Shown here: positions 3,174 through 40,567 of the stretch, piece by piece
Layout of the letters: the number at the start of each line of letters is the position of its first letter
Numbering within the stretch: the stretch's first letter is position 1
The notes under the pieces: generated by a model
What the model was told of the DNA's origin: nothing
The model's input: the letters and a program-made list of their open reading frames with translations, nothing else
Databases searched by the model: none
Source: Phycisphaerales bacterium Planc_01
Lineage (GTDB): Bacteria; Planctomycetota; Phycisphaerae; Sedimentisphaerales; Anaerobacaceae
Direction of reading: 5' to 3'
Length of the DNA stretch: 64,000 nt
NCBI GenBank assembly: GCA_001603075.1
Contig: LVBB01000006.1
Location: forward strand, 202,181-266,180
Program-made: the position numbers and the translations under genes

Positions 3174-5195
3174 ATGACCAGAGAACTGAACCGCCGTGAC
3201 TTTCTCGGAGCCGCCGGTACGGCTGCTCTCGCCCTGCCGTTTACAGCGACGTTGCGAGCGCAAGATATCCCGATGGGTATGCCCGCCGAGTGGCTCGATC
3301 CACCCGTCGAGTTCGCGCAGGCGCCGTTCTGGTTCTGGAACGACGACCTGTCCGAAAAGGAATTGCTTCGCCAGATAGAGGATTTCCGGGCGCACGGCGT
3401 CCACGCCTTCGTGATCCACCCGCGCGCCGGGCTGCCCCGGTCCATCGGCTGGATGAGCGAGCGGATGATCGACTTCATGCGATTCGCCATCGAGCGGGCC
3501 GCCGAGCGCGACATGTGGGTCATCCTCTATGACGAGGGGATGTATCCCAGCGGTTCGTCGAGCGGCCAGGTGGTCGCGGAGAACCCGGCCTTCCGCACGC
3601 GGGGCCTGGTCTGCGTCGACCTGGATGAGGCCACGCCGGGGACCGAGGTGCAGGGCGTGCGCATCGATGCCGAGGGCAAGCCCGACCTGGCGGCCGACCA
3701 GACGCTCGTGGCCGTCACCGGCCGTAAGAGCAACGGCCACCGCCTCGCCATCGTCGACCGCCCGGCGCGCGAGGGCCGCTCGACCATTCGGGGCCTTCAC
3801 TTCATCCAGGACGACCCGCCCCGCCGCGCCGACCGGCGGGAGGTCCCCGAGAACCAGCCGCCCGGAGCGGACATTCTCAATCCCGAATCGGTGGCGTGCT
3901 TCATTCGACTGGTTTACCAGCGATTCTACGACGAGTTCGGCGACCACTTCGGCAAGACCATCCAGGCGATCTTCACCGACGAGCCGTCGCTGCTGGCCCG
4001 AGGCGCCGAGCGAGGCATGGTCCCTGGGACCACCGGCATTCTCGATCACATCAATCGCATCCTGGGTTACGACTTCGCCGAGCACCTGCCGACGTTGTGG
4101 TATGCCGATGAGCCCGACGCCGAGCGGCGCCGGCGCGACTACAACCGGGCGATTCAGGCGAGGCTGGAAGAGACATTCTACCGGCAGATCTCCGACTGGT
4201 GCGGCGCGCATGGCGTCGCCCTGACGGGCCATCCGATGGGCCCGGACGACATCGGCCATCTGCGTCACTTCCACATCCCCGGCCAGGACATCGTCTGGCG
4301 CTATATCGAGCCGGGCAAGCCCAGCACGCTCGAAGGCGCCCAGTCCACGCAGGGCAAATGCGCATCCTCGGCGATGATTCACCTCAAGCGTCGCCGAAAC
4401 CTGAACGAATTCTGCGGCGCCTATGGACACAACTTCACCTTCGAGGAGATGCAGTGGCTGGCGAACTGGCTGCTGATTCGCGGGTGCAACCTGCTCGTTC
4501 CGCACGCGTTCTACTATTCCATTCGCGGCCCCCGGATCGACGAGCGTCCGCCCGACGTCGGGCCCAACAGCCCGTGGTGGTCGCAATACGAGCCCTTCGC
4601 GCGGGCCACGTCGCGTCTGTGCTGGCTGAATACCGACGGCGTGCACGTCTGCGAGCTGGCCATTCTCGGCCGGAACGACTATCTGCCCTGGCAGGCGGCG
4701 AAGGTCTGCTTCCAGCATCAGCGGGATTTCAACTATCTCGAAGCGCGGCACCTGCGGGAGGACGCCCGCGTCGATTCCGACGGCATTCATCTGGCCGGGA
4801 TGCACTACCGCGCCCTGATCGTAGAGGACGATGTACTCGAAAGAGCCAACCCCGCCATCGACGCCCTCACCCAGGCCGAACGTGTCATCGGCTGGAACGA
4901 GACGATGGAGCCAGCCAAGCTTGTCGACGCAATCGACAGGTTGATTCGGCCGGATGTCGAAGTCTCGCCCAAGACGCCGGACCTGCGGGTCCGACATATG
5001 CGAAAGTCGGGCATAGACTACTACCTGCTGTTCAACGAAGGCCAAGGCGATCTGAACGTACGGCTGCGGCTTCTGTCGAAGGGAAGACGGACACTGCTCG
5101 ATCCCACGACCGGGAGTCAGAGGTCCGTAGCAGGCGACGAACCACTTTCGCTGGCCCGTCACGCAATGCGCGTGCTGGCCGTGCAACAGCGCTGA
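3174..5195 (+). CDS. Tat-exported glycoside hydrolase-like protein (GH106-related type)
   Basis: A 673-aa protein when started at the ATG at 3174, which puts NRRDFLGAAG, a twin-arginine signal, at the N-terminus; the longer frame from 3129 would bury it. After the signal the sequence reads APFWFWNDDL, then a (beta/alpha)8-like domain with FVIHPRAGLP and ILYDEGMYPSGSSSGQV. These are landmarks of the large group of secreted hydrolases related to GH106 alpha-L-rhamnosidases. A second part (FTDEPSLL, CGAYGHNFTFEEMQW, then an alpha/beta region to residue 600) follows the same plan. It likely acts on plant or algal polysaccharide outside the cytoplasm. The substrate cannot be told from sequence. 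It ends 11 bp from the convergent CotH gene. Confidence 0.7.
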   Translation: MTRELNRRDFLGAAGTAALALPFTATLRAQDIPMGMPAEWLDPPVEFAQAPFWFWNDDLSEKELLRQIEDFRAHGVHAFVIHPRAGLPRSIGWMSERMIDFMRFAIERAAERDMWVILYDEGMYPSGSSSGQVVAENPAFRTRGLVCVDLDEATPGTEVQGVRIDAEGKPDLAADQTLVAVTGRKSNGHRLAIVDRPAREGRSTIRGLHFIQDDPPRRADRREVPENQPPGADILNPESVACFIRLVYQRFYDEFGDHFGKTIQAIFTDEPSLLARGAERGMVPGTTGILDHINRILGYDFAEHLPTLWYADEPDAERRRRDYNRAIQARLEETFYRQISDWCGAHGVALTGHPMGPDDIGHLRHFHIPGQDIVWRYIEPGKPSTLEGAQSTQGKCASSAMIHLKRRRNLNEFCGAYGHNFTFEEMQWLANWLLIRGCNLLVPHAFYYSIRGPRIDERPPDVGPNSPWWSQYEPFARATSRLCWLNTDGVHVCELAILGRNDYLPWQAAKVCFQHQRDFNYLEARHLREDARVDSDGIHLAGMHYRALIVEDDVLERANPAIDALTQAERVIGWNETMEPAKLVDAIDRLIRPDVEVSPKTPDLRVRHMRKSGIDYYLLFNEGQGDLNVRLRLLSKGRRTLLDPTTGSQRSVAGDEPLSLARHAMRVLAVQQR

Positions 5196-5205
5196 CGCAA
5201 GAGTG

Positions 5206-8200
5206 CTATAAACCCACCCGGCGCCGGGCGACGCCGGCCGAGTCGATCGCGGCGTGCCAGTTGCCCGGATCGTTGCCGTATGCGTCGGTTGCCGTGCGCG
5301 TCAGTGACAGGCCCGTTCCCGCCGCCCCGGCGGGCCATGGGTCCTGCCCATCGACAAAGGTCTCGTGCTGGGAGCCGTTGCTGTAGCTGACGCGGTCTAC
5401 TACGATCCATCGACGCTGTCCGTCGTCGTCGAGATCACCCGGTCTGTCGAGCCGGATCGTCTGGCCAACATTGTCGAGCGAGCCGGCGCCCCATTCGAGA
5501 ATTGCCGGCGAGCCCGCAATGCGATAGATGGCTTCAAAGGTTGCGCGATCCTTGACCAGCATCAGATACTGTCCCGGCGCCAGCGTCACGGGCAACTCGT
5601 GTGGCAAGAGAAATTCGATCGCCGTGTCGCCGTTGCCGACAAACCGCCACGGCGCGTTCCGCTCGAAGTCGTACAGAGTTACCTCGGAATCGCTGATATT
5701 GAACAGCTCGACGTACTCGACGCCCTGCGAGACGCTCGGATGGTACATGATCTCGCCGATCACGACCGGTCCGACCCTCGGGCCGCTGTTGGCCTCTCCC
5801 GGCGTCGGCTCTGCCATCTCGACGAATTCGACCGCTCCGGTACTCGTCTTATGGCGACCGAAGGTTGCGCCCCTGTCGGAGGGTCCGAACGTCTGTCGTT
5901 CGCTGTAGCCGGTCAGCCCCCCGGCCCAGCCGGAGTGCAGGCGCACTGTCTCGCCGTGCCGGCTCAGACCGAATGGACTGTGACACCCGGGGTCATCCTC
6001 ATTGCCGAAATGCTGGTTCTCCGTAAACACAATATATCCATAGGGCGGGATCGCAGTCCCCGGAGCGATCTCGTAACGCGTCAAATCGCTGGCGTTGTCG
6101 CTGAGGAACCAGCCGCCGATGTCGACGGGCAGATCGGTCGTATTGTGCAGTTCGATCCAATCGGGCCCGACGCCCTGGGAGTTAGCCAGGACCTCGTTGA
6201 TGACCACCGTTCCAAGGGCGGGAAGCTCTCCGGCGTCGTCGAAACCGGGCGAGCCGCCCACAGCCGCGCTGGGCCGCCAGGCGACGGGGTGATTCCAGTC
6301 GCCCGCACCGGCCCCAAGGGGATCGGCAGCCGTCAGGGAGAAGCCCATGCCGTCGGTGATGGGATACCAGTCATCACGATACGTGAAGCTCTGCACGATC
6401 GCGCTCGCGGCATCCTTCAACTCGATCCGCTCCCCCGCGTTGCTCAGGCGGCCCGAGTACTGCCCGATGACCGCCAGGCCGGGCCCATAGACCGCCTCGA
6501 ACGCCACAATGTCCTCGACCACAAGCATGCAATCACCCGGCGCCAGATCGACGGCGGGAAACACGAACTCGATCCCGTCGGTGAATCGGACCAGGTTCAG
6601 GTTGACCGTCTCGTCACCGATGTTGGTCAGTTCAATGAACTCGGCGTTCGGATCGGTCGGATGATACATCAGTTCGCTGATCCGGAGGTTCTCGGCGACC
6701 GGACCGACGGCAAACGTCGCCTCGTTCAAGGCGCTCCAGACGCCGTCGAGCCGGGCACGGGCCTTAACATGCGTACTGGCGCTCAGCGCGATCGGCTCAG
6801 TGTAGAGGACGGCCTCCTCCGGCGACTCGGCTGCCACCTTGTCCGCCACGTCCAGTTCGGCGACGATCAGGAAATCGGAACTGGTCAACGAGTTGTTCAG
6901 CCCGTGAATAGCCAGCAGATTGGCGCCGCTTCGCAAGCGGTCAAGGTGGGAAGAGATATCGATAGATTCGAAGACGATCGCGGCCTCATCGGCATGCGAG
7001 GCGTTGGCAACGGAATCCCAGGCCGGCTCACCCTGGAAGTTCCGCCGGGCCACTTCGACCCCATTGAGATAGGCGATGAACCCGTCGTCGTACTGCACCC
7101 GGAGCGTCATCGTGCGCAAGGCGGCCCGGTTGCCGGAGAACTGAAAGGGAACGCGGACGTAGCATGAGCCGTTCGTATTGTACATCTGCGCGCCCACGTC
7201 GATGCCGATGTACGGTTCATACCCGGTGCTGCGTTCGTATCCGACGCCGCCGGGCAGACCGCTGCCTGATAGCCAGGCCGAATCATCGAAGGTGCGCAGG
7301 CCGGTCCAGTCGCCCACCTCCGGGCCGGTTGGCACATGGGCCCGCTTCGGGTCGCTGCGTTTGACCAACGTGGTTACGGCCGGCTCGGCAACGGCCGAAG
7401 TCCCCGCCGGGTCGGTTCCATCGAGCGTGTAGTAGACCTGCATGTCCGTACGCGGCGCGATCAGACCGAGCCGGTCGCCGGCGGCCATGTGCCCACCCTG
7501 CTGATAGGCCCCGTTGACGGCGAATGTCGGGCCCTCGTACGTATACAGCCCCTCGCGAATACAGGCGTCCAGGAACACCCGCTGTCGATTCGGGGTCCAG
7601 CCGGTGATGACGTAGGTGTTCATGTTGGGGATGACGGTGCGTAGCTCGTCCTGCATTTGTAGGAAACGTTGCCGGACGTTCTCTTCCGTCAGGGCGCCGC
7701 CGTTGTAGAAGTGTTTGTAGAGGCGGTCGGTGAAGAGCCGACGAAAGCCGTCATTGGCTTTCAGTGCCCGGAACAGCATCCCATTGGCGTTGCTCTGTGC
7801 GTTGAGTTCACCGAAACGATCGATGTAGAGTTGGCCGGACTCGAAGGTGCCTTCGGCGTCCCAGACGAAGAACTTCCACTGTCCGGCGTCGGACCGTTCG
7901 GCGGCGGCAGCCCAGTTGTTCTGCGGCCAGTCCCAGTCGTTGGGCCATAAGCGGATGATGAGGTAGTCGATGAAAGACGGAATGTCGAGCCGGCGAGCCA
8001 TCTCTTCGTAGTTGCCGGCAACGCTCAGATTCTGCGTGCGGGCGAAGTCGAGCATTCGGTTCCACGACGTGGTATTGCCGTCACGGATGCCGCTCATGGT
8101 CATCACGTCCCACGGCTTATCGCTGTCGAACCACTCCTGACAGACCTCGTCTTTGATGTGCTCGGTGGGATTGAAGTACCCCTTGTACTGGCCGTTGATG

Positions 8201-9555
8201 AAGAGGTTGGCGAAACGCCCCACGGCTGCCCGGCTGCCCATGTCCTTGTGCAATCGGCGAAGCAGCTCATCCTTCACAAAGGGATTGGTCCGGTCGTTGT
8301 GCCCGGCACGCAGGACTATGCTGGGGAACCGTTCGATGTCGGACTCGGGGAACAGCGGGTATTCGAGCCGATTCGATCCATAGCGGCCTCGGAAATAGAG
8401 CCTCAGACTGAACTTGCCGTATCCCGACCAGTATCCGGTTTGACGCTGATATCGCGGGCGCGTGTATTCGCTGCCGTGGACACGCAGTCCGCAATCCATC
8501 TGGAATCCCGCGTTGTCCTCGGGCAAAATCCACTCACAGGAGACGGGCCGTTCGAGGCTGCGGTTCAAGACATTGTTGTGGCTGTCGGGCCCGCTCGACG
8601 TCCAGACCCCGTTGACGTAACTGCCGCCGACGATGGCCATGACTCCGTCGGGTTCGTAGAGCGACTTTCCGGCGTCGCCGACGACTGAGATCACCGGGAG
8701 CGATCGCACGGTCGCCGGCGCATTGAAGATGTAAGTATGTGTGTGAACCCGGGTCGGTTTCCACCCCGGCTTGACGGCCATGACCCGCAGGCACATCGTC
8801 GTCCGCACCAGCATCGGTCCGGTATACGGCCGGCCCGGCGCAAAACGCCGGCCGACCTCGTCGTCGGGCACAGCGCCGTCGGTGGTGTAGAGGATCTGGA
8901 CGTCCTCGGTCGGGCATGTGATCGTCAGGATGAACGGCTCGTCGTAGAACCCCCGCTCGTGACTGAAATGCAGCGGGGCCACCTCGCCCAGATACCCCTC
9001 ATTGTTCGGCGTTCCCGGCGTCGGCTCACCGAAGAAGCGAAGCGTCTCGCCGGCGTCCGGATAGCGTCCGAAGGACACATCCGGACTCTGCGGTCCGAAT
9101 GCCAGGCTGTCCAGGAGGGTCCGGCCATCGGCGGCAAACAGAAGGACCTGCTCTCCGCCGGCGTCCAGTCTGAAGTTGGCGTGCAGCCACCGCGTCCCGC
9201 TGCCGCCGTCGGCCCATACAATGAGGTACCCTTGGGGTGGAATGACGGTCTTGGCTGGCTCGTCGTCGGGGAACCGCCACTGGGTGGGTCGGTCAGGATC
9301 GTCGGTCAGATACATCCCGGCCACGTCCACGGGCGTTCGGCCGGCGTTGTAGATCTCGATCCAGTCGCTGAAGTTGCCTTGCAGGTCTGTCACGACCGTG
9401 GCATTGGAGGCCATCACCTCGTTGAGGAACAGCGCGATTCGAACCGGCCGGACCTGCTGCGTCAGACCGGCCGAGCCCTCGGCAGCCCCAGTCCAATGAG
9501 GCCACGCGCCAAGCAGAACTCCGCAAACGAGGTGCAATACAATCGGTTTCAACAT
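5206..9555 (-). CDS. Secreted giant with CotH kinase-like domain and four lamin-tail domains
   Basis: 1449 aa with a signal peptide (residues 1-25, ending near TGAAEG). Approximate domain order: lamin-tail domain 40-150 (LNEVMASN, WIEIYNAG); chitobiase C-terminal-like domain 199-277 (ILYTTDGAVP); CotH kinase-like domain 330-655 (VHGSEY, WPNDWDWPQNNW, FFVWDAEGTF); a second chitobiase-like strand near 706 (VYYTLDGTDP); a jelly-roll region 772-902 (YDDGFIAYLNG, NLLAIHGLN); and further lamin-tail domains near 956-1056 (ISELMYHP), 1116-1236 (INEVLANS) and 1262-1359 (IGEIMYHP). This architecture is typical of planctomycete and Bacteroidetes cell-surface proteins. CotH domains can phosphorylate proteins in spores, but bacterial surface members are uncharacterised. 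Convergent with the hydrolase at 3174-5195. Confidence 0.85.
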   Translation of the reverse strand: MLKPIVLHLVCGVLLGAWPHWTGAAEGSAGLTQQVRPVRIALFLNEVMASNATVVTDLQGNFSDWIEIYNAGRTPVDVAGMYLTDDPDRPTQWRFPDDEPAKTVIPPQGYLIVWADGGSGTRWLHANFRLDAGGEQVLLFAADGRTLLDSLAFGPQSPDVSFGRYPDAGETLRFFGEPTPGTPNNEGYLGEVAPLHFSHERGFYDEPFILTITCPTEDVQILYTTDGAVPDDEVGRRFAPGRPYTGPMLVRTTMCLRVMAVKPGWKPTRVHTHTYIFNAPATVRSLPVISVVGDAGKSLYEPDGVMAIVGGSYVNGVWTSSGPDSHNNVLNRSLERPVSCEWILPEDNAGFQMDCGLRVHGSEYTRPRYQRQTGYWSGYGKFSLRLYFRGRYGSNRLEYPLFPESDIERFPSIVLRAGHNDRTNPFVKDELLRRLHKDMGSRAAVGRFANLFINGQYKGYFNPTEHIKDEVCQEWFDSDKPWDVMTMSGIRDGNTTSWNRMLDFARTQNLSVAGNYEEMARRLDIPSFIDYLIIRLWPNDWDWPQNNWAAAAERSDAGQWKFFVWDAEGTFESGQLYIDRFGELNAQSNANGMLFRALKANDGFRRLFTDRLYKHFYNGGALTEENVRQRFLQMQDELRTVIPNMNTYVITGWTPNRQRVFLDACIREGLYTYEGPTFAVNGAYQQGGHMAAGDRLGLIAPRTDMQVYYTLDGTDPAGTSAVAEPAVTTLVKRSDPKRAHVPTGPEVGDWTGLRTFDDSAWLSGSGLPGGVGYERSTGYEPYIGIDVGAQMYNTNGSCYVRVPFQFSGNRAALRTMTLRVQYDDGFIAYLNGVEVARRNFQGEPAWDSVANASHADEAAIVFESIDISSHLDRLRSGANLLAIHGLNNSLTSSDFLIVAELDVADKVAAESPEEAVLYTEPIALSASTHVKARARLDGVWSALNEATFAVGPVAENLRISELMYHPTDPNAEFIELTNIGDETVNLNLVRFTDGIEFVFPAVDLAPGDCMLVVEDIVAFEAVYGPGLAVIGQYSGRLSNAGERIELKDAASAIVQSFTYRDDWYPITDGMGFSLTAADPLGAGAGDWNHPVAWRPSAAVGGSPGFDDAGELPALGTVVINEVLANSQGVGPDWIELHNTTDLPVDIGGWFLSDNASDLTRYEIAPGTAIPPYGYIVFTENQHFGNEDDPGCHSPFGLSRHGETVRLHSGWAGGLTGYSERQTFGPSDRGATFGRHKTSTGAVEFVEMAEPTPGEANSGPRVGPVVIGEIMYHPSVSQGVEYVELFNISDSEVTLYDFERNAPWRFVGNGDTAIEFLLPHELPVTLAPGQYLMLVKDRATFEAIYRIAGSPAILEWGAGSLDNVGQTIRLDRPGDLDDDGQRRWIVVDRVSYSNGSQHETFVDGQDPWPAGAAGTGLSLTRTATDAYGNDPGNWHAAIDSAGVARRRVGL

Positions 9556-12046: not shown

Positions 12047-12442
12047 ATATCACATTGGGACTCTCAAATCCACCGTCATTCGTACGTTGCCTATGGGGTG
12101 CCCGGGGCGCACTATAGCATCGCGTCGAACCACAATCAAAGCAAAAGGCCCGTCGACGCCCCGGCGGGCATGGAGCGGGGGCATTATGGCTTCTGCTGCG
12201 GCACGCCAGCCGTTCGTTGCCCCTTCCACTGTATGGACATCGTGTCAAAACGGGTGAGGAATTGGGTAAACAGGCGGGGCATCAAGCTTGACAACGGCCG
12301 GGATTGTCTTATAATGTAGTATTGTAAGGGTTTGTTTACACAAATCTTACCGTAAGACAGGAGTCGGCGAGTGACCCGTCCGCCCGCTGCGGTTACGGCC
12401 GCGTGAGAGTCGGTGTTCTCGTCTATTGGAGCACACAGTACG
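12047..12442. other. Divergent regulatory region between M48 protease and pilT
   Basis: 396 bp containing no supported gene. It carries the strong sigma70-type promoter at 12288-12315, and the pilT transcript would have a leader of about 120 nt. The leader contains GACCCGTCCGCCCGC-type GC-rich sequence but no riboswitch that I recognise. Confidence 0.5.
12288..12315 (+). promoter_or_regulatory. Strong sigma70-type promoter of the pilT operon
   Basis: TTGACA at 12288-12293 and TATAAT at 12310-12315, both perfect consensus hexamers separated by 16 bp. It is one of the clearest promoters in the window, in an AT-rich patch, and points at pilT. Confidence 0.8.
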
Positions 12443-13576
12443 ATGACACCGGATCAACCTCTGGATGCCCACAAGGCCCTCGATCACGAACCTCAGATCA
12501 ACAAGTACTTCCGAGTCGCTATCAAGACACTCGCCAACGACATCCACCTGAAGGTGGGCCAGCCTCCGAAACTCCGACTGCAAGGCACGTTGAAGAGTAC
12601 CACGGGGGAGATCCTGACGCCGCAACGCATGGAGGAACTGACGTCCGAGATCATGAGTCCGGCGCAGAGGGAGTTCTTCCAGCAGAACGGAACGCTCGAC
12701 TTCGCGCATGAGATCGGCAAAGAGCATCGGTTTCGTATCAACGTTTTTCGCCAGCGCGGTTTGGTCAGTCTGGTGGCCCGCCGGGTCAGTGCTCATGTGC
12801 CTTCCTTCGAGAGTCTGCACCTGCCACCGGTGCTTGAGAAGATCGCCGAGGCGCACCAAGGCTTGATTCTCGTGGTTGGCGCCACAGGCTCTGGCAAGAC
12901 CACCACGATTGCCTCGATGCTCGACTACATCACCCGAACGCGGGCCTGCCACATCGTAACGGTGGAAGACCCCATCGAGTACCTTTTCAACGACAACAAG
13001 GCCATCGTCTCGCAGCGGGAGATCGGCATCGACGTGCCGAGCTTCGAGGAAGCGTTGACCTATCTGATGCGCCAGGACCCCGACGTCGTCTTCGTCGGGG
13101 AGATGCGTGACGCCCGGACAGTAACGGCCGGGATGCGGGCGGCCGAGACCGGGCACCTGGTCATGGGAACGATGCACTCGACGAATGCCTCCCAGGCGGT
13201 CCACCGCCTGCTGGATCTGTTTCCCCAGGAGGAACGGGAGCTCGTCCGACAGTCCCTGGCGCTGGCCCTCAAGGCCATTGTCAGCCAGGCCCTGCTGCCG
13301 TGCATTCGGGAAGAGATCAGCCGGGTGCCGGCCATGGAGGTGATGTTGGCCAACCCGTCCGTACGGAAGCTCATCGCGGAAGGGCGGGAGGCCGACCTGC
13401 CCAGCGTCATCCGAGGGGCCCAGCGAGAAGGCATGGTCGACCTGACCGACAGCCTCTGCCGTCTCATCCAGGACGGATGGGTCGATCCGAAGGACGCCTA
13501 CCCGGTGGCGCCCAATACGGAGGAGTTGAAGATGGCCCTGAAGGGGATTCGAACGACGGCCGGAGGAATCCTGTAG
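12443..13576 (+). CDS. pilT: Type IV pilus retraction ATPase PilT
   Basis: 377-aa hexameric secretion-superfamily ATPase that depolymerises type IV pili for twitching. Visible features are the N-terminal PAS-like region (NDIHLKVGQPPKLRLQG), Walker A GATGSGKTTT, the Asp box VEDPIEY, a Walker B (DPDVVFVGEMRD) and the His box MGTMHSTNA. All catalytic residues are present, unlike in the next gene. In the PilT-specific C-terminal region, LPCIREEISRVPAMEVML replaces the more usual LLP...GRVAAxE pattern. The ATG at 12443 has GGAG 11 bp upstream; the GTG at 12413 is an alternative. It heads an operon with the PilB-like and CvpA-like genes. Confidence 0.92.
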   Translation: MTPDQPLDAHKALDHEPQINKYFRVAIKTLANDIHLKVGQPPKLRLQGTLKSTTGEILTPQRMEELTSEIMSPAQREFFQQNGTLDFAHEIGKEHRFRINVFRQRGLVSLVARRVSAHVPSFESLHLPPVLEKIAEAHQGLILVVGATGSGKTTTIASMLDYITRTRACHIVTVEDPIEYLFNDNKAIVSQREIGIDVPSFEEALTYLMRQDPDVVFVGEMRDARTVTAGMRAAETGHLVMGTMHSTNASQAVHRLLDLFPQEERELVRQSLALALKAIVSQALLPCIREEISRVPAMEVMLANPSVRKLIAEGREADLPSVIRGAQREGMVDLTDSLCRLIQDGWVDPKDAYPVAPNTEELKMALKGIRTTAGGIL

Positions 13577-13643
13577 GTTTGGGCGGCCCGCTCGCGTTCG
13601 CCGCCGGTCACACGATCGTAACCTTATGGTAATGGAGCATTCA

Positions 13644-15296
13644 ATGCCGGACATGCTGCTGATGGCTATCGAGTACGGCGGGTACGTCTCGATCGTCAAA
13701 CTCGTCGTCTTTGTGTTGCTGTATCTCCTCTGGCTCCTCCTGGTCCGCTGGTCCGCCGCTGACGCCAAGGGTGTTGACACGAACATCGGCTTCTGGATCG
13801 GCCTGATTCTCGGGGCCGGGGCTCTGGGCATTCTGCTCTGGTGGCTGATCCCGGTCTTCATCGTCGGTCTGCTCATCTTCCTCGCCGCCATCGGAGCCAC
13901 CGGCCTGGCCTACGTCCGGCACCGAAACACGCGCGTCCTCGACTTCGACCGCGTGCTCACGTTCGAGCACATCAAGAGTCTCGTCGCCGGCTCGGAGAAG
14001 CTCGAAGCGATGGAGAACTTCATGTTCATCACGGCCAACAACAACGAAGTGCCGCGCCCCGAGCCTCGCACGCCGATGTTTTTCGGCTATCGCACGGCGT
14101 ACGATCTGCTCACGGATGCCCTGTGGCGCCGTGCCAGCACGATCACGTTCGCGCCCAAGGGAGACAACTATGAGGTGACGTATTACATCGACGGCGCGGC
14201 GACCAGGCAACCGGCCGTTCCTCGCGAGCAGATGGAACACTTCATCCACTTCGCCAAGGAACTGGCGGCGCTCGACGCCAACGAGAAGCGCAAGCCTCAG
14301 AAAGGCAAGTTCCGCACGCGACACAAGAAGGAGAATGCCGACTGGGAGGTCGTGACCGCCGGATCGACCGCCGGGGAACAGGTCCGACTCAAGCACGTCT
14401 CCAAAGAGCACGATCTGCGAATCAACCAGTTGGGACTGGCCCCCGACCAGCAGGAGCACTTCGAAGGCCTGACGCAAACCCACCAGGGCGTGTTCCTGAT
14501 CTCGGGGCCTCCCAAGAGCGGCATCACGACCACACTCTATGCGTTGCTGAGGAGCCACGACGCGTTCCTGAACAACATCAACACCATCGAGAAGCAGCCC
14601 GCCACCGAACTGCTGAACATCACACAGAACGTGTTCGCGCTGACCGACACGGGAACGACCACGTACGCCAAGAAGCTCCAGTCGATCGTCCGCATGGGAC
14701 CCGACATCGTGGGCATCGGGGAGTGCGAAGACCCCGAAACCGCCCAAGTCACGAGCCTCGCGGCCAAGGATGGCAAGCGGATGTACGTCGCCATGAACGC
14801 CGACAATGTCCTTCAGACCCTCGGCAAGTGGATCAAGATGGTCGGCGACAAGAAACTGATCGCCGAGACGCTGATCGGCATCTGCAACCAGCGCATGATG
14901 CGCACGCTCTGCGAGGAGTGCAAACAGGGATATTCGCCGAACAAGGAGTTGCTCAAGAAGTTCAATCTGCCGGCAGAGAAGGCCAAGGTCCTGTACCGGC
15001 CCGGCAAGGAGGTCTACGACAAGCGGGGCAAGCCGTCCGTGTGCGAGCATTGCCAGGGAACCGGCTACGTCGGGCGGACGGGCGTCTTCGAGATGATCGT
15101 GCTGACCGACGAACTGCGCGCCGCCGTGCGTCAGGTCAAGCAGTTGCCCGAACTCGGGATGCAGTTCCGCCGGGCCAAGATGTTGTATCTTCAGGAACAG
15201 GCGTTGCGAAAGGTGATGGCGGGGAAGACCTCGATCAACGAAATGCTCCGTGTCCTCGCCAGTGCGAAGCAGCAGAGCAATTCGGCATCGCAATAG
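13644..15296 (+). CDS. Membrane-anchored PilB/GspE-like ATPase with degenerate nucleotide-binding motifs
   Basis: 550 aa. The start at 13644 has GGAG 6 bp upstream; ATGs at 13626 and 13632 are alternatives. Hydrophobic stretches at about 14-34 and 50-92 put two or three membrane helices before a soluble GspE/PilB fold, which is unusual because PilB is normally soluble. The Walker A position reads G288-PPKSG-I-T (usual GPTGSGKT), so the phosphate-binding lysine is replaced by isoleucine. The Walker B region (PDIVGIGECED) keeps the glutamate but lacks the usual IRD arginine. The His-box motif (LHTND) reads VAMNADN. The zinc tetracysteine is retained (C414, CEEC, CEHC). It is probably a non-hydrolysing pilus-motor partner or scaffold for PilT. 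Confidence 0.8.
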   Translation: MPDMLLMAIEYGGYVSIVKLVVFVLLYLLWLLLVRWSAADAKGVDTNIGFWIGLILGAGALGILLWWLIPVFIVGLLIFLAAIGATGLAYVRHRNTRVLDFDRVLTFEHIKSLVAGSEKLEAMENFMFITANNNEVPRPEPRTPMFFGYRTAYDLLTDALWRRASTITFAPKGDNYEVTYYIDGAATRQPAVPREQMEHFIHFAKELAALDANEKRKPQKGKFRTRHKKENADWEVVTAGSTAGEQVRLKHVSKEHDLRINQLGLAPDQQEHFEGLTQTHQGVFLISGPPKSGITTTLYALLRSHDAFLNNINTIEKQPATELLNITQNVFALTDTGTTTYAKKLQSIVRMGPDIVGIGECEDPETAQVTSLAAKDGKRMYVAMNADNVLQTLGKWIKMVGDKKLIAETLIGICNQRMMRTLCEECKQGYSPNKELLKKFNLPAEKAKVLYRPGKEVYDKRGKPSVCEHCQGTGYVGRTGVFEMIVLTDELRAAVRQVKQLPELGMQFRRAKMLYLQEQALRKVMAGKTSINEMLRVLASAKQQSNSASQ

Positions 15297-21538: not shown

Positions 21539-22609
21539 ATGGACAGCCACACTTTGCCCCGTGCGCCGCAAATCGGTATCCCCCTGTCCCGTCCGGGCGG
21601 AGCGATCCTTGCCCTGTGTTTCGCGATCGTGCTGGCGGCAACGACGGAGGCGCCGGCCGAATCCCAGATCGTCGAACTCGAGCCGGGTGCGTACACGTAT
21701 CAACACGCCCAACTGATGGCTGACGCGCACGCCCGTTCGTTCGGCGAGCGCAGGCCGCCGGCCGTTCGACGAACCCCCGTCCGCGAGGAGGAACTGACAG
21801 ACCTGTGCCAACACCTGGATTCGCTCCAGGAGCAGATCCGACAAACCGAACAGAGGCTGCACGAACTGAGCCAGGCGACGCGACCGGCGCCGCAAGCAAG
21901 GCGGGAACCCGTCTATGGGGGCGATGGCGAGATCGCAGAACTGAACCACCGGCGCAACTGGCTTGCCGAGCAGGCGAATCAACAAGTAGTGGAGTTGAGA
22001 GAACTCCGCGAACACCTCGCCAACCGTGAGCGCCAGATCGCCTCGGAATTGCTCGCCATCCACGAGCAGATGCAGGACGTCGAGAGGCAACTCGTCGATC
22101 TGGACTGCCGGCGCCAGGAACACATGGAGCGCCTCGCGGCGGCACGGGAGCAACTGCGACAGATCGAAGCCCGGCTCCGCAATCTCATGGCCGAGGTAAT
22201 GGGAATGCAGAGGCACGTCGCCGAACGGATGGAGGAGAACGAGAGGCAGAGAGAGGCCATCCGCCATGCCATCGAGCGGACGCGACAGGAGGCCGAGCAG
22301 GTCCGCCGCCAACTCGAAGAGGTCCGCCAAGTGCCCGAACGCCTCCCCGAACCGACGCCGCGCCGTTGGCCGATGTATGTCCCGCCCGCGCCCTGTCCGG
22401 CACCGATCCCGGTCGCACCGTGCCCGACACAGGTGGTTTCCGTGCCGAGCCCGGACCCGGCCCTGCAGACCGAACTGCGACTTCTGCGCGAAGAGGTGAC
22501 CCAATTGCGTCAACGACTTCAGGAAGTGCCCAAACGCTCCGAGCTGATGTGCGTGCAGAACCCCTACGCTGTCGGCAGTGCCCGTGGGTACTACTGGCCC
22601 TGCCGATAA
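21539..22609 (+). CDS. Secreted coiled-coil protein, 356 aa
   Basis: AAAGGAG precedes the ATG at 21539. An N-terminal hydrophobic segment (about 22-36, AILALCFAIVLAATTEA) acts as a signal peptide or anchor. Residues 80-280 are a long heptad-patterned coiled coil rich in Glu, Gln and Arg (EQIRQTEQRLHELSQ, REQLRQIEARLRNLMAEV, ERTRQEAEQVRRQLEEVRQV). A Pro/Cys-containing linker (MYVPPAPCPAPIPVAPCP) follows, then a shorter coil, then the tail GSARGYYWPCR. No named family recognised. The architecture suggests a periplasmic or cell-wall structural protein. It is flanked by terminators on both sides and appears monocistronic. Confidence 0.7.
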   Translation: MDSHTLPRAPQIGIPLSRPGGAILALCFAIVLAATTEAPAESQIVELEPGAYTYQHAQLMADAHARSFGERRPPAVRRTPVREEELTDLCQHLDSLQEQIRQTEQRLHELSQATRPAPQARREPVYGGDGEIAELNHRRNWLAEQANQQVVELRELREHLANRERQIASELLAIHEQMQDVERQLVDLDCRRQEHMERLAAAREQLRQIEARLRNLMAEVMGMQRHVAERMEENERQREAIRHAIERTRQEAEQVRRQLEEVRQVPERLPEPTPRRWPMYVPPAPCPAPIPVAPCPTQVVSVPSPDPALQTELRLLREEVTQLRQRLQEVPKRSELMCVQNPYAVGSARGYYWPCR

Positions 22610-22719: not shown

Positions 22720-22735
22720 TACGAATTTTTTCGTT
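22720..22735. promoter_or_regulatory. BlaI-type operator 1
   Basis: TACGAA-TTTT-TTCGTT: inverted half-sites with a 4-bp spacer, one mismatch to operator 2. It overlaps the upstream edge of the -35 hexamer (22734). Confidence 0.7.
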
Positions 22736-22762
22736 GATTTACTACGAATTCGTTCGTATCTT
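22734..22762 (+). promoter_or_regulatory. blaI promoter with embedded operator
   Basis: TTGATT (22734-22739) and TATCTT (22757-22762) with a 17-bp spacer. Operator 2 lies between the hexamers, so bound repressor would exclude RNA polymerase, which predicts autoregulation of the blaI-M56 operon. Confidence 0.6.
22743..22758. promoter_or_regulatory. BlaI-type operator 2
   Basis: TACGAA-TTCG-TTCGTA: perfect 6-bp half-sites around a 4-bp spacer. It lies 23 bp from operator 1, about two helical turns, so two repressor dimers could bind the same face of the DNA. Confidence 0.75.
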
Positions 22763-23197: not shown

Positions 23198-26100
23198 ATG
23201 GCAACACTGGAAACCCTGCTATCGACGCAGATGATCGAGCGGCTGGGCTGGACGCTGGTCCACTTCGTCTGGCAGGCGGCCGCGGTTGCGCTGCTGCTGG
23301 CGGTCGTGCTGCGATGTCTTCGCCGGAGCAGCTCGAATGTGCGGTACGTCGTCGCGTGTCTGGCGATGCTGCTGATCGTCGCGCTGCCGCTGGTGACGAT
23401 GTCGCTTGTCGAGGTATCGAGGCCCGTCGCGGAGGCGGGCCCGACCCTCAATCCCCCGCTTGTGATGAGGACGACGCCCGTCGAGGTGGTGGAATTGCCT
23501 CTTGAGCCGTTCGACGCGCCGGTTGCGGAGATGCCGGAGCGGGTCGCTCACACACCCTGGACGCAGCGGATCGCCACCATGCTCGAGCCTGCCCTGCCTT
23601 GGCTGGTCTCCGGCTGGCTGCTGGGCGTCTTCGGGCTTTCCGCCTGGCACCTGGGCGGCTGGGCCCAGTTGCAGCGGATGAAACGCCGCATGGTCCGCGA
23701 GGTCACTGCCCCACTGCATGCAGCGCTCGCCGACTTGGCGAATCGCCTTGGCGTCCGCCGGACGGTCGGACTGCTCGAATCGGGGCTCGTCGAAGTCCCC
23801 ACCGTCGTCGGCTGGCTCAAGCCGGTGATTCTGCTGCCTGCCAGCGCACTTTCAGGCCTCAGCACCAAACAGCTCGAAGCCATCCTCGCCCACGAACTGG
23901 CCCACGTCCGCCGCTGCGATTACCTCGTCAACCTCGTCCAAACCGTCGTCGAGATCTTCGGATTCTACCATCCTGCGGCCTGGTGGATCTCGCACCGGAT
24001 TCGGGATGAACGGGAGAACTGCTGCGACGATCTGGCTGTGCAGGTCTGCGGCGATTCGCGACGCTACGCCCGCGCGCTGACCTGCCTGGAAGAGCTGCGC
24101 CACCATAGCACTGAACTGGCGCTCGCCGCCAGCGGAGGCAGCCTCGTCGGGCGGATCGCCCGGCTGCTCGGCCGCCCTGCTGTGGATAACCGCCGCTTCG
24201 CCTGGCTCCCCGGCCTGATCGCCCTGCTCGTCGTCGCCGCCATCCTCATCCCCACCGCCCTGCTCATCGCGGCGCCGACTGTACCACAGCCTTTGAACAC
24301 AGAGGCCGATTCAGCAGAAGCTGCGGGAGACGATAATGTCACACCGACACGACTCGTACATCGGAATGTCGAAGGACGGGTTGACCGCGAGTTCGGGTTT
24401 GAGCAGTTGATCCGCGAGGAAGGAGGTCGGTGGATTGTTGCCATACCCTATTCGACGCAGTCGCTCGGAAAGATGCGCTGCCACATGCGTGCCGACCGGG
24501 GCGAACTATGTTTTGATGGAGCGCTGAACCAGCCCACGCCGGACGGTGGCACATTCCGTGGCAATGTGGTCATTGAGATCGCTTCGAGCGAACCCAACAG
24601 CGTCGATACGTGCACGCTCTATCTGAACGAGGTGACCTTCTCCGCACAGAACAAGCGATTCACCGGTTCCGGACCCGTTCGCCTGGTTGCCGACGCCACC
24701 GAACTGGTCGGCCGAGGACTGGAGTTGTCTTTTGACGAACCACCAGACCTGTCCGATCCGAGCCGACTCACGGTCATTGCCGGAGTCGGCGTGCAAATCG
24801 CCCCCTCGGGCTCTCTGATCGTCTCGCTCGTGGAGCCCAAGATAGAGGTCTCGGAGAAATCTGCATCCAGGCAACCCGCGTCGGTCCGCGCGCGGACCGA
24901 AACGGCTGACAGTCGCGCACCCTCACCGGATGAGAAGCCCAGGGTCATGCTGGATATTGAGCCGAGTGCTGACGCAGCAGACCGCCAAGTACTGCTGAGC
25001 TTCACCATGGCGGAAATCGTAACGGAAGAAGCACTGGATCGTGCCACGGCCCGACAGCTTCGTGCCCTTCTCACCGACGCATCGCCCGACGCCAAATTCA
25101 ATCTACCAAGCGTGGAAGAGCTCCAGAAGCCCGTACAGTATATCGTCAGCAAATACGCGAACATCTGCAACCAAATAGATGACGCCGCCAGAGCCTTCAC
25201 CGATCTGCTGGTGTCACGGGGTTATGCGACCGTATGTGACAGCCCTGAAATGCTGATCCGCCTCGGCGAAAGCGGTCACCTCAGGGTCATGGGACCTCCG
25301 GCGCCTCCCAGCCAGACGGACAATTCTGCTCTGAGTCTGGATGTGACACCGACCGCCCCGCATGACGCCTACGGCATCCAGCTTACTCTGGCACTGCGTG
25401 CAAGAAACCTGGTGTCCCTCGACTCGGAGGGCAGGTTCTCCGCGAGGGCAGCCTACGCCAGCTTCGATCTCGCGCTATCTGCCCGGAATAAGCAGTGCGT
25501 CATGCTTACTCTGACCACGGCCGTCGCCCTTGATGCGAAGACCACAACGACTCTGTTGTTGGTCAAGCCGACCCTCATCGAGCCCCCCGCTGCCTCTGCG
25601 CTCGCGCCGTCCGCCTCCGAGCGGGCAACCGCCGACGCGGCTCGCGAATTCGTCCGGACCGATCCGATGGTCCGCGAGTTGGCGAAGAGAATCGCGGAGA
25701 TAGAAATCGAATTGCTGGAAGCGCAGCAGACGTTCCTGCCGGAGCATCCCGAAATCGTCCAGAAGAAACAACTGCTCGAAGCACTCCGCCGCCGGCTGGA
25801 CGAGCGACGCCGCGAACTGCAGCAGGAACTCGACGATGACCTCGCCACACGTCTGCCTTCCGTCCGCGTGTCAACCAAAACGCCAGATGACCGTGCGTCC
25901 TCACGGGATGACAAGCCCAAGGTCATGCTGGATATCGAGCTGGTCAAGTTCCTGACGGACCGGCCACTGAGTCCTGAGGCAGCGACACAGTTGTCGGGCC
26001 TGTGGGACCAGATGTACGCAAGGCGAGAAACCGGACGAGAGCAGCGAGGTTCACTTCCGCGTGTGGACGAGTTGCAGATTTCGCCTCAGGCTCTGCTCGA

Positions 26101-27604
26101 ACGCTGCACCGCGAATGCGCAAGGAGACTCGGAGGCACTGAAGATCCTGGTCGATCTGCTGGCATCGCGCGAATACTTGAAAGTCGTCATGAAGCCAAGG
26201 GTGGAGGTCTTTGACGGCCAGCAGGCACAGGTCATGAGCAAACAACACGTGCCGAATCCGACCGTCCAACCCGGGGCGCCAGAGACGGTCGAATGCCGCG
26301 ATCTTGTGACGGTCACGCCTCGCATCGATAGCGCCGGTCATATCACCTTGGACCTTGCGGCGGAGATCTGCGACGTCATACTGAACGACAGCAAGACGCC
26401 ACGCATCAGCAAGCACAGCATCGACACCAAGGCCGTCGTGGACAAGAACAAAACGTTCGTCTGTCGCCTGGAGTCCACTGCCGAAGGAGAGACGCAAGAC
26501 AACGGGGTCCTCTACCTCCTGGCCCACCCGCGCGTTATCCGATCCGCGCCATCCGCCGCCGTTGCGATCCCGACTGCGGAATCCGAGCCCTCAGGGCTGG
26601 CTACGGTGACCGCAACGTTCGAGGGCACGGACTTGCTTCAGGCCCTCGAAACGGTGGCCGAAATGGCGGGGGCCAATATCATGTGCGATGCGAATCTCTC
26701 CGGCGAAGTCTATGCCACACTTGACGATGTGCCTATTGAGACGGCCCTCCCCGTAATGCTCGCTGGCAGCCCGTACGTCGCGACGAGGACACCGGACGGG
26801 TATGCCGTCACGAGGCGGAATGCGCAGCCTCCCACAGCACCAAGCCGGGAAGTAGACGCCGTCGCAATCGAGACGCGGTTCGTGCTGGTCGATCCCGAGT
26901 TCCTGGACGCACTGCGGCGTGGGTTGCCGATCAAAGGCGTTACCGCACCGGCCGACGCCAACGCGCTGCACGCGCTGGGCGACGACCTCGTCGCCGGTCG
27001 CACGCCACTTCTGGAACCCGACCATGTCCAACTGCTCCTGCAAGCGGTCCGGCAGTATACGGCCAGCAAGATGTTGGCCACACCAAAGGTGACCGTGCTG
27101 GACGCCGAATCCGCGAACATCCGTATTGGGGAACCGATGAACTACGTCAGCGGGTACCGCGAGCCCAACGACGCGTCACAAGAGCCGATCCCGCAGCACG
27201 CCTCGAAGGAGATCGGCATGCGACTCGACGCGACGCCGCACCTCATCGACAACCAGAACAACATCCGTCTTCAGTTCGAGATGGAGATCAACTCGCTGCT
27301 CGGGATGCAGAAGGCCCTGTACAGGGGCAAGTACGAGTACGACGTTCCCACGTTCACGGCCGTCACCGTTGACACCGAGATCGTCATACCCGATGGACAC
27401 ACCGCCCTGATCCACGTAGGACCCATACGCCCGTTTGGCGACATCCTCAGTAACGAAAGCGACCCGCCCGCGCCGATGCTAATGCTCATCAAGTCCACCC
27501 GAACACCGGTCCGGCCCCCCGACCCCACAGCCCCCATGCCCAACAACCCCCACCCCGGCGACCCCGGCATGGGTGCCCTGCCGTCCGGCGCGAGTCTACG
27601 GTAG
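23198..27604 (+). CDS. BlaR1-like M56 metallopeptidase fused to LptC-like, coiled-coil and secretin-like modules
   Basis: 1468 aa. Residues 15-330 form an M56 membrane protease with several helices, the zinc motif HELAH (near 232) and RDERENCCDDLAV. A final membrane helix lies at about 335-360. The rest should be periplasmic. Region 380-548 recalls LptC/OstA-type repeats (FTGSGPVRLVADATELVGRG). Two internally duplicated regions start with MLDIE and lie near 581-795 and 907-1115, each ending in a secretin-like strand pattern. A helical segment at 820-880 has the Wzz-like FLPEHPEIVQKKQLLEAL. Residues 1135-1208 resemble an STN/secretin N domain (DLLQALETVAEMAGANI). Residues 1222-1442 resemble a secretin C-terminal domain (LATPKVTVLDAESANIRIGEP, IPDGHTALIHVGPIR). 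This is an extraordinarily elaborate sensor for a BlaI partner. Confidence 0.8.
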   Translation: MATLETLLSTQMIERLGWTLVHFVWQAAAVALLLAVVLRCLRRSSSNVRYVVACLAMLLIVALPLVTMSLVEVSRPVAEAGPTLNPPLVMRTTPVEVVELPLEPFDAPVAEMPERVAHTPWTQRIATMLEPALPWLVSGWLLGVFGLSAWHLGGWAQLQRMKRRMVREVTAPLHAALADLANRLGVRRTVGLLESGLVEVPTVVGWLKPVILLPASALSGLSTKQLEAILAHELAHVRRCDYLVNLVQTVVEIFGFYHPAAWWISHRIRDERENCCDDLAVQVCGDSRRYARALTCLEELRHHSTELALAASGGSLVGRIARLLGRPAVDNRRFAWLPGLIALLVVAAILIPTALLIAAPTVPQPLNTEADSAEAAGDDNVTPTRLVHRNVEGRVDREFGFEQLIREEGGRWIVAIPYSTQSLGKMRCHMRADRGELCFDGALNQPTPDGGTFRGNVVIEIASSEPNSVDTCTLYLNEVTFSAQNKRFTGSGPVRLVADATELVGRGLELSFDEPPDLSDPSRLTVIAGVGVQIAPSGSLIVSLVEPKIEVSEKSASRQPASVRARTETADSRAPSPDEKPRVMLDIEPSADAADRQVLLSFTMAEIVTEEALDRATARQLRALLTDASPDAKFNLPSVEELQKPVQYIVSKYANICNQIDDAARAFTDLLVSRGYATVCDSPEMLIRLGESGHLRVMGPPAPPSQTDNSALSLDVTPTAPHDAYGIQLTLALRARNLVSLDSEGRFSARAAYASFDLALSARNKQCVMLTLTTAVALDAKTTTTLLLVKPTLIEPPAASALAPSASERATADAAREFVRTDPMVRELAKRIAEIEIELLEAQQTFLPEHPEIVQKKQLLEALRRRLDERRRELQQELDDDLATRLPSVRVSTKTPDDRASSRDDKPKVMLDIELVKFLTDRPLSPEAATQLSGLWDQMYARRETGREQRGSLPRVDELQISPQALLERCTANAQGDSEALKILVDLLASREYLKVVMKPRVEVFDGQQAQVMSKQHVPNPTVQPGAPETVECRDLVTVTPRIDSAGHITLDLAAEICDVILNDSKTPRISKHSIDTKAVVDKNKTFVCRLESTAEGETQDNGVLYLLAHPRVIRSAPSAAVAIPTAESEPSGLATVTATFEGTDLLQALETVAEMAGANIMCDANLSGEVYATLDDVPIETALPVMLAGSPYVATRTPDGYAVTRRNAQPPTAPSREVDAVAIETRFVLVDPEFLDALRRGLPIKGVTAPADANALHALGDDLVAGRTPLLEPDHVQLLLQAVRQYTASKMLATPKVTVLDAESANIRIGEPMNYVSGYREPNDASQEPIPQHASKEIGMRLDATPHLIDNQNNIRLQFEMEINSLLGMQKALYRGKYEYDVPTFTAVTVDTEIVIPDGHTALIHVGPIRPFGDILSNESDPPAPMLMLIKSTRTPVRPPDPTAPMPNNPHPGDPGMGALPSGASLR

Positions 27605-39715: not shown

Positions 39716-40567
39716 CTACATCCCCCCCATGTGCGTCTTGCCGGGATACTTGGCATCCAGCCAGTCCAGGTCAGGATTGGGGGGACTGAATATCTGTCCC
39801 TTGCCGAATCCCAGAGCGGAAGCCTCTCCTCGGCTGCGGCAATAGATGATCGTCCGCTTGTCCTCCCACTTCTTCCGCTCGGCGTGCCCGTCCATGAAAC
39901 TGAATGTGCAGGCGTCGCTGTGGAAGATGCCGAGCGGGTCCCACAGACTCCCGTCATAAGGGATATACGACCAGCCGTCGTGATTGAAGTTGCCCGCCGA
40001 ACCGTCGTAGATGTCCTCGACAAACAGCATCTTGTTCGCCTGGTCTTTGAAGGTGAACAGCTTTTTCGGATCGGAGGACTCCGTCCCACGCATATAATCG
40101 GTCAGGGAGTAGCTGCGGTATATCTGAAACGCCGGTGTATTGCCAAGGCTGGTGCCCAGGTTCTTTCGATTGTCGCCCGGGCAGTGGAACACGGCGGTCT
40201 CGCGCAGAAATGGATACAGAGCGCCTTCCCGCAGGCCGTTGAGACGCTGTTCGAGCGTCACATTCTGACCGGACGAGCCCATGCCGATAATGGCGCCGCT
40301 GGTAGAGTAGTCCAATGGGGGCATGACCCAAGGTGGCACACCATTGACCGGGGCGTGTCTGGCGAAGCCCCCGCAGATGGAACCGTTGTTGTCATCGGCG
40401 TACATGATGTACGCCTGTGCCAGCGACCGCTGGTTCGCCAGGCAGTTGACACCTCGGGCCTGTTCGCGAGCAACCTTGAGGGCCGGCATGAGGATGGCCA
40501 TGAGGATGGCAATGACGGCAACGACGACGAGCAACTCGATCAAGGTGAATCCGCTACGCTTGCACAT
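39716..40567 (-). CDS. Type II/IV pseudopilin-like protein (prepilin N-terminus, H-x9-DG type)
   Basis: 283 aa. The N-terminus [20 protein letters not shown] is a class III prepilin signal: cleavage would be before the phenylalanine, followed by the glutamate at +5. The C-terminal part has [20 protein letters not shown], the planctomycete motif usually written H-x9-DG. Such proteins are expanded in Planctomycetota and resemble pseudopilins that may build a periplasmic fibre. The pilT operon at 12.4-16.5 kb could act on such fibres, but the two loci are 23 kb apart. Convergent with the propeller/TPR gene, 60 bp between stops. Confidence 0.88.

Follow-up and report, generated by a model that had tools for sequence, protein, structure and literature searches.

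A BlaI-paired M56 membrane protease fused to secretin-type and other envelope-type modules in a Phycisphaerales bacterium

The best-known role of BlaR1-type receptors is the sensing of antibiotics. The BlaR1/MecR1–BlaI/MecI systems of Staphylococcus aureus combine an M56 protease with an HEXXH...E zinc site, an adjacent repressor, operator-controlled self-induction and a C-terminal extracytoplasmic sensor. A similar arrangement is found in a 64,000-nucleotide stretch of contig LVBB01000006.1 from Phycisphaerales bacterium Planc_01 (the window), where a blaI-type repressor gene is followed by a gene for a 1468-amino-acid M56 protein (Table 1). Whereas the BlaR1 sensor is a penicillin-binding domain, the sensor of this protein is composed of secretin, N0, LptC-like and Wzz-like modules, and, unlike for the BlaR1/MecR1 system, no separate target gene with a dual operator was found for it. 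The M56–BlaI chassis is known, the sensor architecture is new and the regulation is unusually closed; no paper describing M56–secretin fusions was found in the open literature searched. We tentatively propose (rough probability 0.42) that BlaI and the fusion constitute an autoregulated transmembrane signalling operon of the BlaI–M56 type, in which domains of envelope machines make up the sensor and report on these machines.

The fusion is real. The M56 protease and the secretin modules lie in one uninterrupted frame, and orthologs in G002, G003 and G005 carry the same fusion, which argues against an assembly error. Pfam, run on the bare sequence, assigns residues 25–320 to Peptidase_M56 (PF05569, E 6.4e-28, far above the curated cut-off) and two stretches, the best at residues 1284–1405, to Secretin (PF00263, E 3.8e-24, 85.6 bits against a cut-off of 27.5). 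The NCBIfam models PilQ (E 1.3e-20), GspD (E 1.3e-19) and, over the N0/STN region, HofQ (E 7e-4) match below the cut-offs set for these full-length models, and iterated profiles delimit three secretin modules, the first of them degenerate, and the N0/STN domain. A profile of residues 886–1440 (one row of its alignment, L101, is a standalone secretin) matches the solved structures of GspD and PilQ (best E 5e-24), and a profile of residues 362–886 made without standalone secretins still matches GspD 5wln (E 2.3e-10). The AlphaFold model of residues 886–1440 (13 sequences, mean predicted local distance difference test score (pLDDT) 77.6, predicted template modelling score 0.42) superimposes on GspD with a Z score of 12.9 and a root-mean-square deviation of 2.8 over 126 residues (best Foldseek E 4e-7), and its N0/STN domain aligns with the N0 domain of GspD and the signalling domains of PupR and FpvA (Z about 9–11) and also matches that of PupB. 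Pfam, the PDB sequence profiles and the AlphaFold model concur on the secretin and N0 assignments. No penicillin-binding (transpeptidase-like) sensor was matched by Pfam in the fusion, even at E values up to 10, and the NCBIfam model for BlaR1 covers residues 135–311 only (83.6 bits, cut-off 400). An M56 protease with a BlaI partner, a non-penicillin-binding sensor and a secretin- and STN-type tail had been proposed in an earlier sequence-only reading, and the profile searches it called for bear this description out; the duplicated region it had noticed is the secretin module, present in three copies. Structure prediction, which it had suggested for residues 370–1450, was usable for the C-terminal part, whereas the model of residues 362–886 is poor (mean pLDDT 57.7), with low confidence in the LptC-like part and with the Wzz-like helices present.

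The protease domain retains the residues required for catalysis. H232, E233, H236 and E273 are invariant in an M56 alignment of 18 clade members and align with the catalytic residues H201, E202, H205 and E242 of S. aureus BlaR1 (PMC9834060); the profile matches the BlaR1 structures 8exs and 8exp. The scissile positions of the S. aureus proteins, Ser-Phe in BlaR1 and Asn-Phe in BlaI (PMC9834060), correspond to Ala-Ala in the autocleavage loop of the window's fusion and to Arg-Ala in its BlaI partner, so that the P1' Phe is replaced by Ala in both proteins. Because the P1' residues of the two proteins change together, the alignment is consistent with a single protease acting on both sites.

The ectodomain modules have counterparts among the envelope proteins encoded by the same genome, namely a 725-amino-acid LptC-like protein, a 1241-amino-acid secretin, three secretins of 541–626 amino acids and a Wzz/BY-kinase. 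The N0/STN domain is 40% identical to the N0 region of a same-genome secretin, and the LptC-like region is 40–44% identical to the genome's own LptC-like protein (L100), whose gene lies beside a SIS-CBS (KdsD-like) gene. The LptC-like label given in the sequence-only reading is therefore backed by homology to this paralog, but the paralog itself scores under the cut-off of the LptC model (PF06835, E 0.021), and the fusion has no direct match to PF06835. Likewise, the Wzz-like label agrees with matches to EpsF (NCBIfam, E 0.0023), further chain-length models and the genome's Wzz/BY-kinase, but the model matches fall under curated cut-offs and the homology to the paralog is weak (E 1.6e-7). As judged by own-genome comparison, the fusion has periplasmic segments putatively homologous to the envelope bridges LptC and Wzz/GumC, and differs from them in carrying fragments only, which are weak on curated models.

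In fold and sequence, and in having an N0/STN domain ahead of the last module, the secretin part resembles GspD and PilQ. However, in contrast to these proteins the fusion has an N-terminal inner-membrane protease, three tandem shortened modules and a Pro/Gly-rich tail, and the signature block P-L-x-D-I/L-P-x-x-G-x-L-F is absent from all three modules, where profile matches stop at position 112–113 of 162. The modules end just ahead of the block, and module 3 retains only a final strand. All 12 other secretins matched in the genome retain a block of the type VPLLGDIPLLGxLF. Among M56-fused modules, the motif is present in four, all terminal (L074, L109, L111 and L113), and missing from 30, a count that includes a few partial copies of one and the same protein. 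A complete secretin was probably the source of the C-terminal secretin module, which several lineages then shortened. Because the signature block is missing and an inner-membrane protease anchors the N-terminus, the fusion is unlikely to function as an oligomeric outer-membrane channel, and we set this possibility aside.

The promoter region suggests a short regulatory circuit. Upstream of orthologous blaI genes, two palindromes of the type TACGAA-N4-TTCGT[T/A] are placed around the -35 element, and the second of them occupies the promoter spacer. The predicted window promoter scores under the threshold of a sigma-70 consensus scan and aligns with TTGACA/TATAnT-like elements of relatives. Of 61 genomes, 16 contain the dual operator (TACGA-N6-TCGT[T/A]), each of them exactly once; a reversed control pattern gave 0. 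The operator precedes blaI-M56 in 14 of the 16 and in G060 an operon ending in blaI-M56; in G017 the contig ends too early for an assignment, so that all 15 assignable cases lie at the own operon. Exact and one-mismatch operator searches for a BlaI regulon elsewhere in the window genome yielded background only, the one other TACGA-N6-TCGTA site having neither a dual arrangement nor an assignable promoter-proximal gene start, and no other dual site was found in the searched relatives of the clade. The regulatory loop is apparently closed on its own operon, as judged from the operator pattern. Five exact single operator-like sites in relatives (L198, L207, L208, L209 and L211), which lack the dual arrangement and have neither a blaI nor an M56 open reading frame (ORF) within the 3 kb retrieved, were taken as chance occurrences. 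The operator type also precedes blaI-M56 in many other phyla. In Hymenobacter (L229, L235) and Citreicoccus (L231), a dual TACGA-N6-TCGTA operator precedes TonB-receptor-like and DUF5916 genes, which suggests that, elsewhere, envelope proteins are among the targets of this BlaI lineage; the Hymenobacter TonB-receptor-like genes, coding for outer-membrane proteins, speak for envelope sensing by the fusion.

Among 99 searched genomes, the window's own included, 28 match the fusion at E ≤ 1e-40, all five same-genus relatives among them. The survey of M56 proteins with secretin tails proposed in the sequence-only reading recovered secretin modules in 20 of 117 M56 ORFs (duplicates removed), all of which, except for one borderline Bacteroidota match (domain E 0.03), belong to the Planctomycetota group that surrounds the window; named records of the relatives are Phycisphaerae, Sedimentisphaerales and other Planctomycetota metagenome-assembled genomes. 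In nearly all clade members blaI lies a few base pairs upstream of the M56 gene. The window protein groups beside G001, G002 and G005 in the M56 tree. M56 domains are 45–87% identical within the clade and the ectodomains are heavily rearranged, with whole-protein lengths of 2220 (G002), 1635 (G005) and 1797 (G003) amino acids, conserved ends and a middle that is inserted or replaced. PDZ with Secretin_N, a SecDF head and full Secretin_N plus Secretin architectures also occur among the relatives.

On the proposed reading, BlaI would bind the two operators straddling the promoter and repress blaI-M56, as motif position and conservation suggest. By homology to BlaR1, the M56 protein is predicted to be an inner-membrane protein whose zinc site points towards the cytoplasm and whose ectodomain lies in the periplasm, where the latter would most likely dock on, or compete within, secretin- or pilus-type trans-envelope machinery via its homologous modules. 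A change in the state of this machinery would release the protease, leading to BlaI cleavage and induction of the operon, and the output would chiefly be more receptor, plus prepilin-like proteins in some relatives. Like the FecA/FpvA–FecR/PupR cell-surface signalling systems, the fusion has an STN-type domain within a protein that signals across the membrane, but repressor proteolysis takes the place of a sigma/anti-sigma factor pair and the domain is closer to secretin N0. Judged from sequence comparison, the ectodomain probably reports on the cell's own envelope machines, and the counterparts of its modules among the genome's envelope proteins speak for this; docking on secretin-type machinery is the reading favoured here. 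In this group of uncultured planctomycetes, envelope modules replace the drug sensor and the receptor seems to induce its own gene only, which suggests that the alarm concerns envelope machinery and not drugs. If true, a lineage-wide family with secretin ectodomains and an apparently closed loop would mean that the M56 protease chassis can be adapted to monitoring machines of the cell's own envelope. One operator, one operon and defined modules also make a clear test possible. A doubtful extension of this proposal is that the fusion represents a class of receptors whose M56 protease senses the assembly state of secretin- or pseudopilus-type machines via built-in subunit copies, under one-operator-per-genome feedback.

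Links to pilus machinery lend indirect support to the suggestion of the sequence-only reading that the protein may monitor secretin or outer-membrane assembly. The operon behind the operator in L079 and L124 consists of two prepilin genes, a gene for a small membrane protein, blaI and M56, in this order. The L079 prepilins match N_methyl and DUF1559, one with an H-X9-DG motif above the cut-off (L079 was the locus tested); the M56 protein of L079 ends in a secretin module, that of L124 shows none. In the window, a pair of PilT-like and GspE-like genes lies 8–10 kb from the fusion, and this synteny is kept in G001, G002, G005 and G029. Proximity of this pair is weak evidence for a link, because the genome holds 19 T2SSE ATPase matches. 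Several points weigh against the proposal. The operon is without any secretin gene, beyond the genus neighbourhood conservation is limited to blaI-M56, and the sequence comparisons link no specific secretin, ligand or partner to the fusion. BlaI may use weaker or half-site targets missed by the search pattern. Moreover, other clade ectodomains carry LRR, CarboxypepD_reg, PDZ and HEAT domains instead of or besides secretin modules, so that the sensed thing may differ among clade members.

The main rival to docking is that the fusion is sensor and effector in one, its ectodomain serving as an envelope-spanning scaffold whose dose is set by the BlaI loop with no separate target regulon. One dual operator per genome, at the own promoter, would fit such a protein, and so would its long modular periplasmic region, which includes LptC-like and Wzz-like bridge modules, but ectodomain length and order vary strongly within the genus, which is odd for a fixed structural bridge, and the typical secretin signature block is missing; we regard this as rather unlikely. 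It is improbable that the secretin and STN modules bind some small ligand, a peptide or a glycan in a generic manner and have nothing to do with secretion machinery: although the N0/STN domain resembles not only secretin N0 but also the signalling domains of FpvA, PupB and PupR, and secretin modules have given way to many other binding domains elsewhere in the clade, the nearest sequences are same-genome secretins and the LptC-like protein, and relatives have full Secretin_N plus Secretin architectures. Rapid rearrangement of the ectodomain next to a conserved protease, and the likeness of its modules to the genome's own envelope proteins, could also reflect an integrated decoy, in which copies of envelope machines trigger the receptor upon attack by a predator, phage or toxin and the attack drives module shuffling; with no attacker, no defence-gene neighbourhood and no effector gene under the operator seen, this is highly improbable. 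That the gene is decaying, or is an artefact of assembly or annotation, as the unusual domain mix in a metagenome-assembled genome might suggest, has a negligible probability and is ruled out by the same fusion in many independent assemblies without stops or shifts and with conserved ends.

Table 1. Features of the blaI-M56 locus and of pilus-related genes (window positions unless a locus is given; aa, amino acids)
Feature	Position	Strand	Basis or remark
Operator 1, TACGAATTTTTTCGTT	22720..22735	+	Overlaps start of -35; conserved in orthologous loci; one dual operator per genome
Operator 2, TACGAATTCGTTCGTA	22743..22758	+	In promoter spacer; exact palindrome, sole exact copy in genome
Likely promoter, TTGATT-N17-TATCTT	22734..22762	+	Overlapped by both operators; read from sequence
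blaI-type repressor, 127 aa	22812..23195	+	PF03965, E 3.4e-29; stop 2 bp before protease gene
M56 protease–secretin fusion, 1468 aa	23198..27604	+	Pfam, NCBIfam
M56 (BlaR1-type) membrane zinc protease domain, residues 1-355	23198..24262	+	HEXXH 232-236, third zinc ligand E273
LptC-like domain, residues 380-547	24335..24838	+	Homology to same-genome LptC-like protein
Secretin module 1 (degenerate), residues 586-794	24953..25579	+	Iterated profile also recovers standalone secretins
Wzz/GumC-like helical segment, residues 814-882	25637..25843	+	EpsF match; genome's Wzz/BY-kinase; model helices
Secretin module 2, residues 897-1114	25886..26539	+	PF00263, PilQ; model resembles GspD
N0/STN domain, residues 1136-1205	26603..26812	+	Same-genome secretin N0 region; model matches
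Secretin module 3, residues 1216-1440	26843..27517	+	PF00263; model; signature block missing
Low-complexity Pro/Gly-rich tail	27518..27601	+	Sequence
PilT-like gene and GspE/PilB-like ATPase gene, then CvpA-like gene	12413-15296	+	N-terminal hydrophobic segments in the ATPase; synteny kept in the genus
Prepilin pair and 195/192-aa membrane protein	L079:3896-6246, L124:6159-8486		Between operator and blaI

The window further contains a prepilin-type DUF1559-like gene (39716-40567, minus strand) and a 1449-amino-acid ORF (5206-9555, minus strand). A second, divergent BlaI–M56 pair lies directly upstream of the operon in four relatives (L067, at 3686-6366, L068, L069 and L070); the window has no such pair, and a coiled-coil gene (21539-22609) adjoins blaI directly. 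A domain of about 88 amino acids recurs in M56 ectodomains (L072, L074, L113, L068, L111, L122, L096, L097 and others) and matches no family above the cut-off in Pfam or NCBIfam. Homology of this repeat to prepilin heads is not claimed, hhalign having aligned 29 columns only at a probability of 69%; its consensus is of the form YANDH..YPD.L...NV.YLGKGKT....IAYDKTLLE.G.GTNVLFNDGHVEF.

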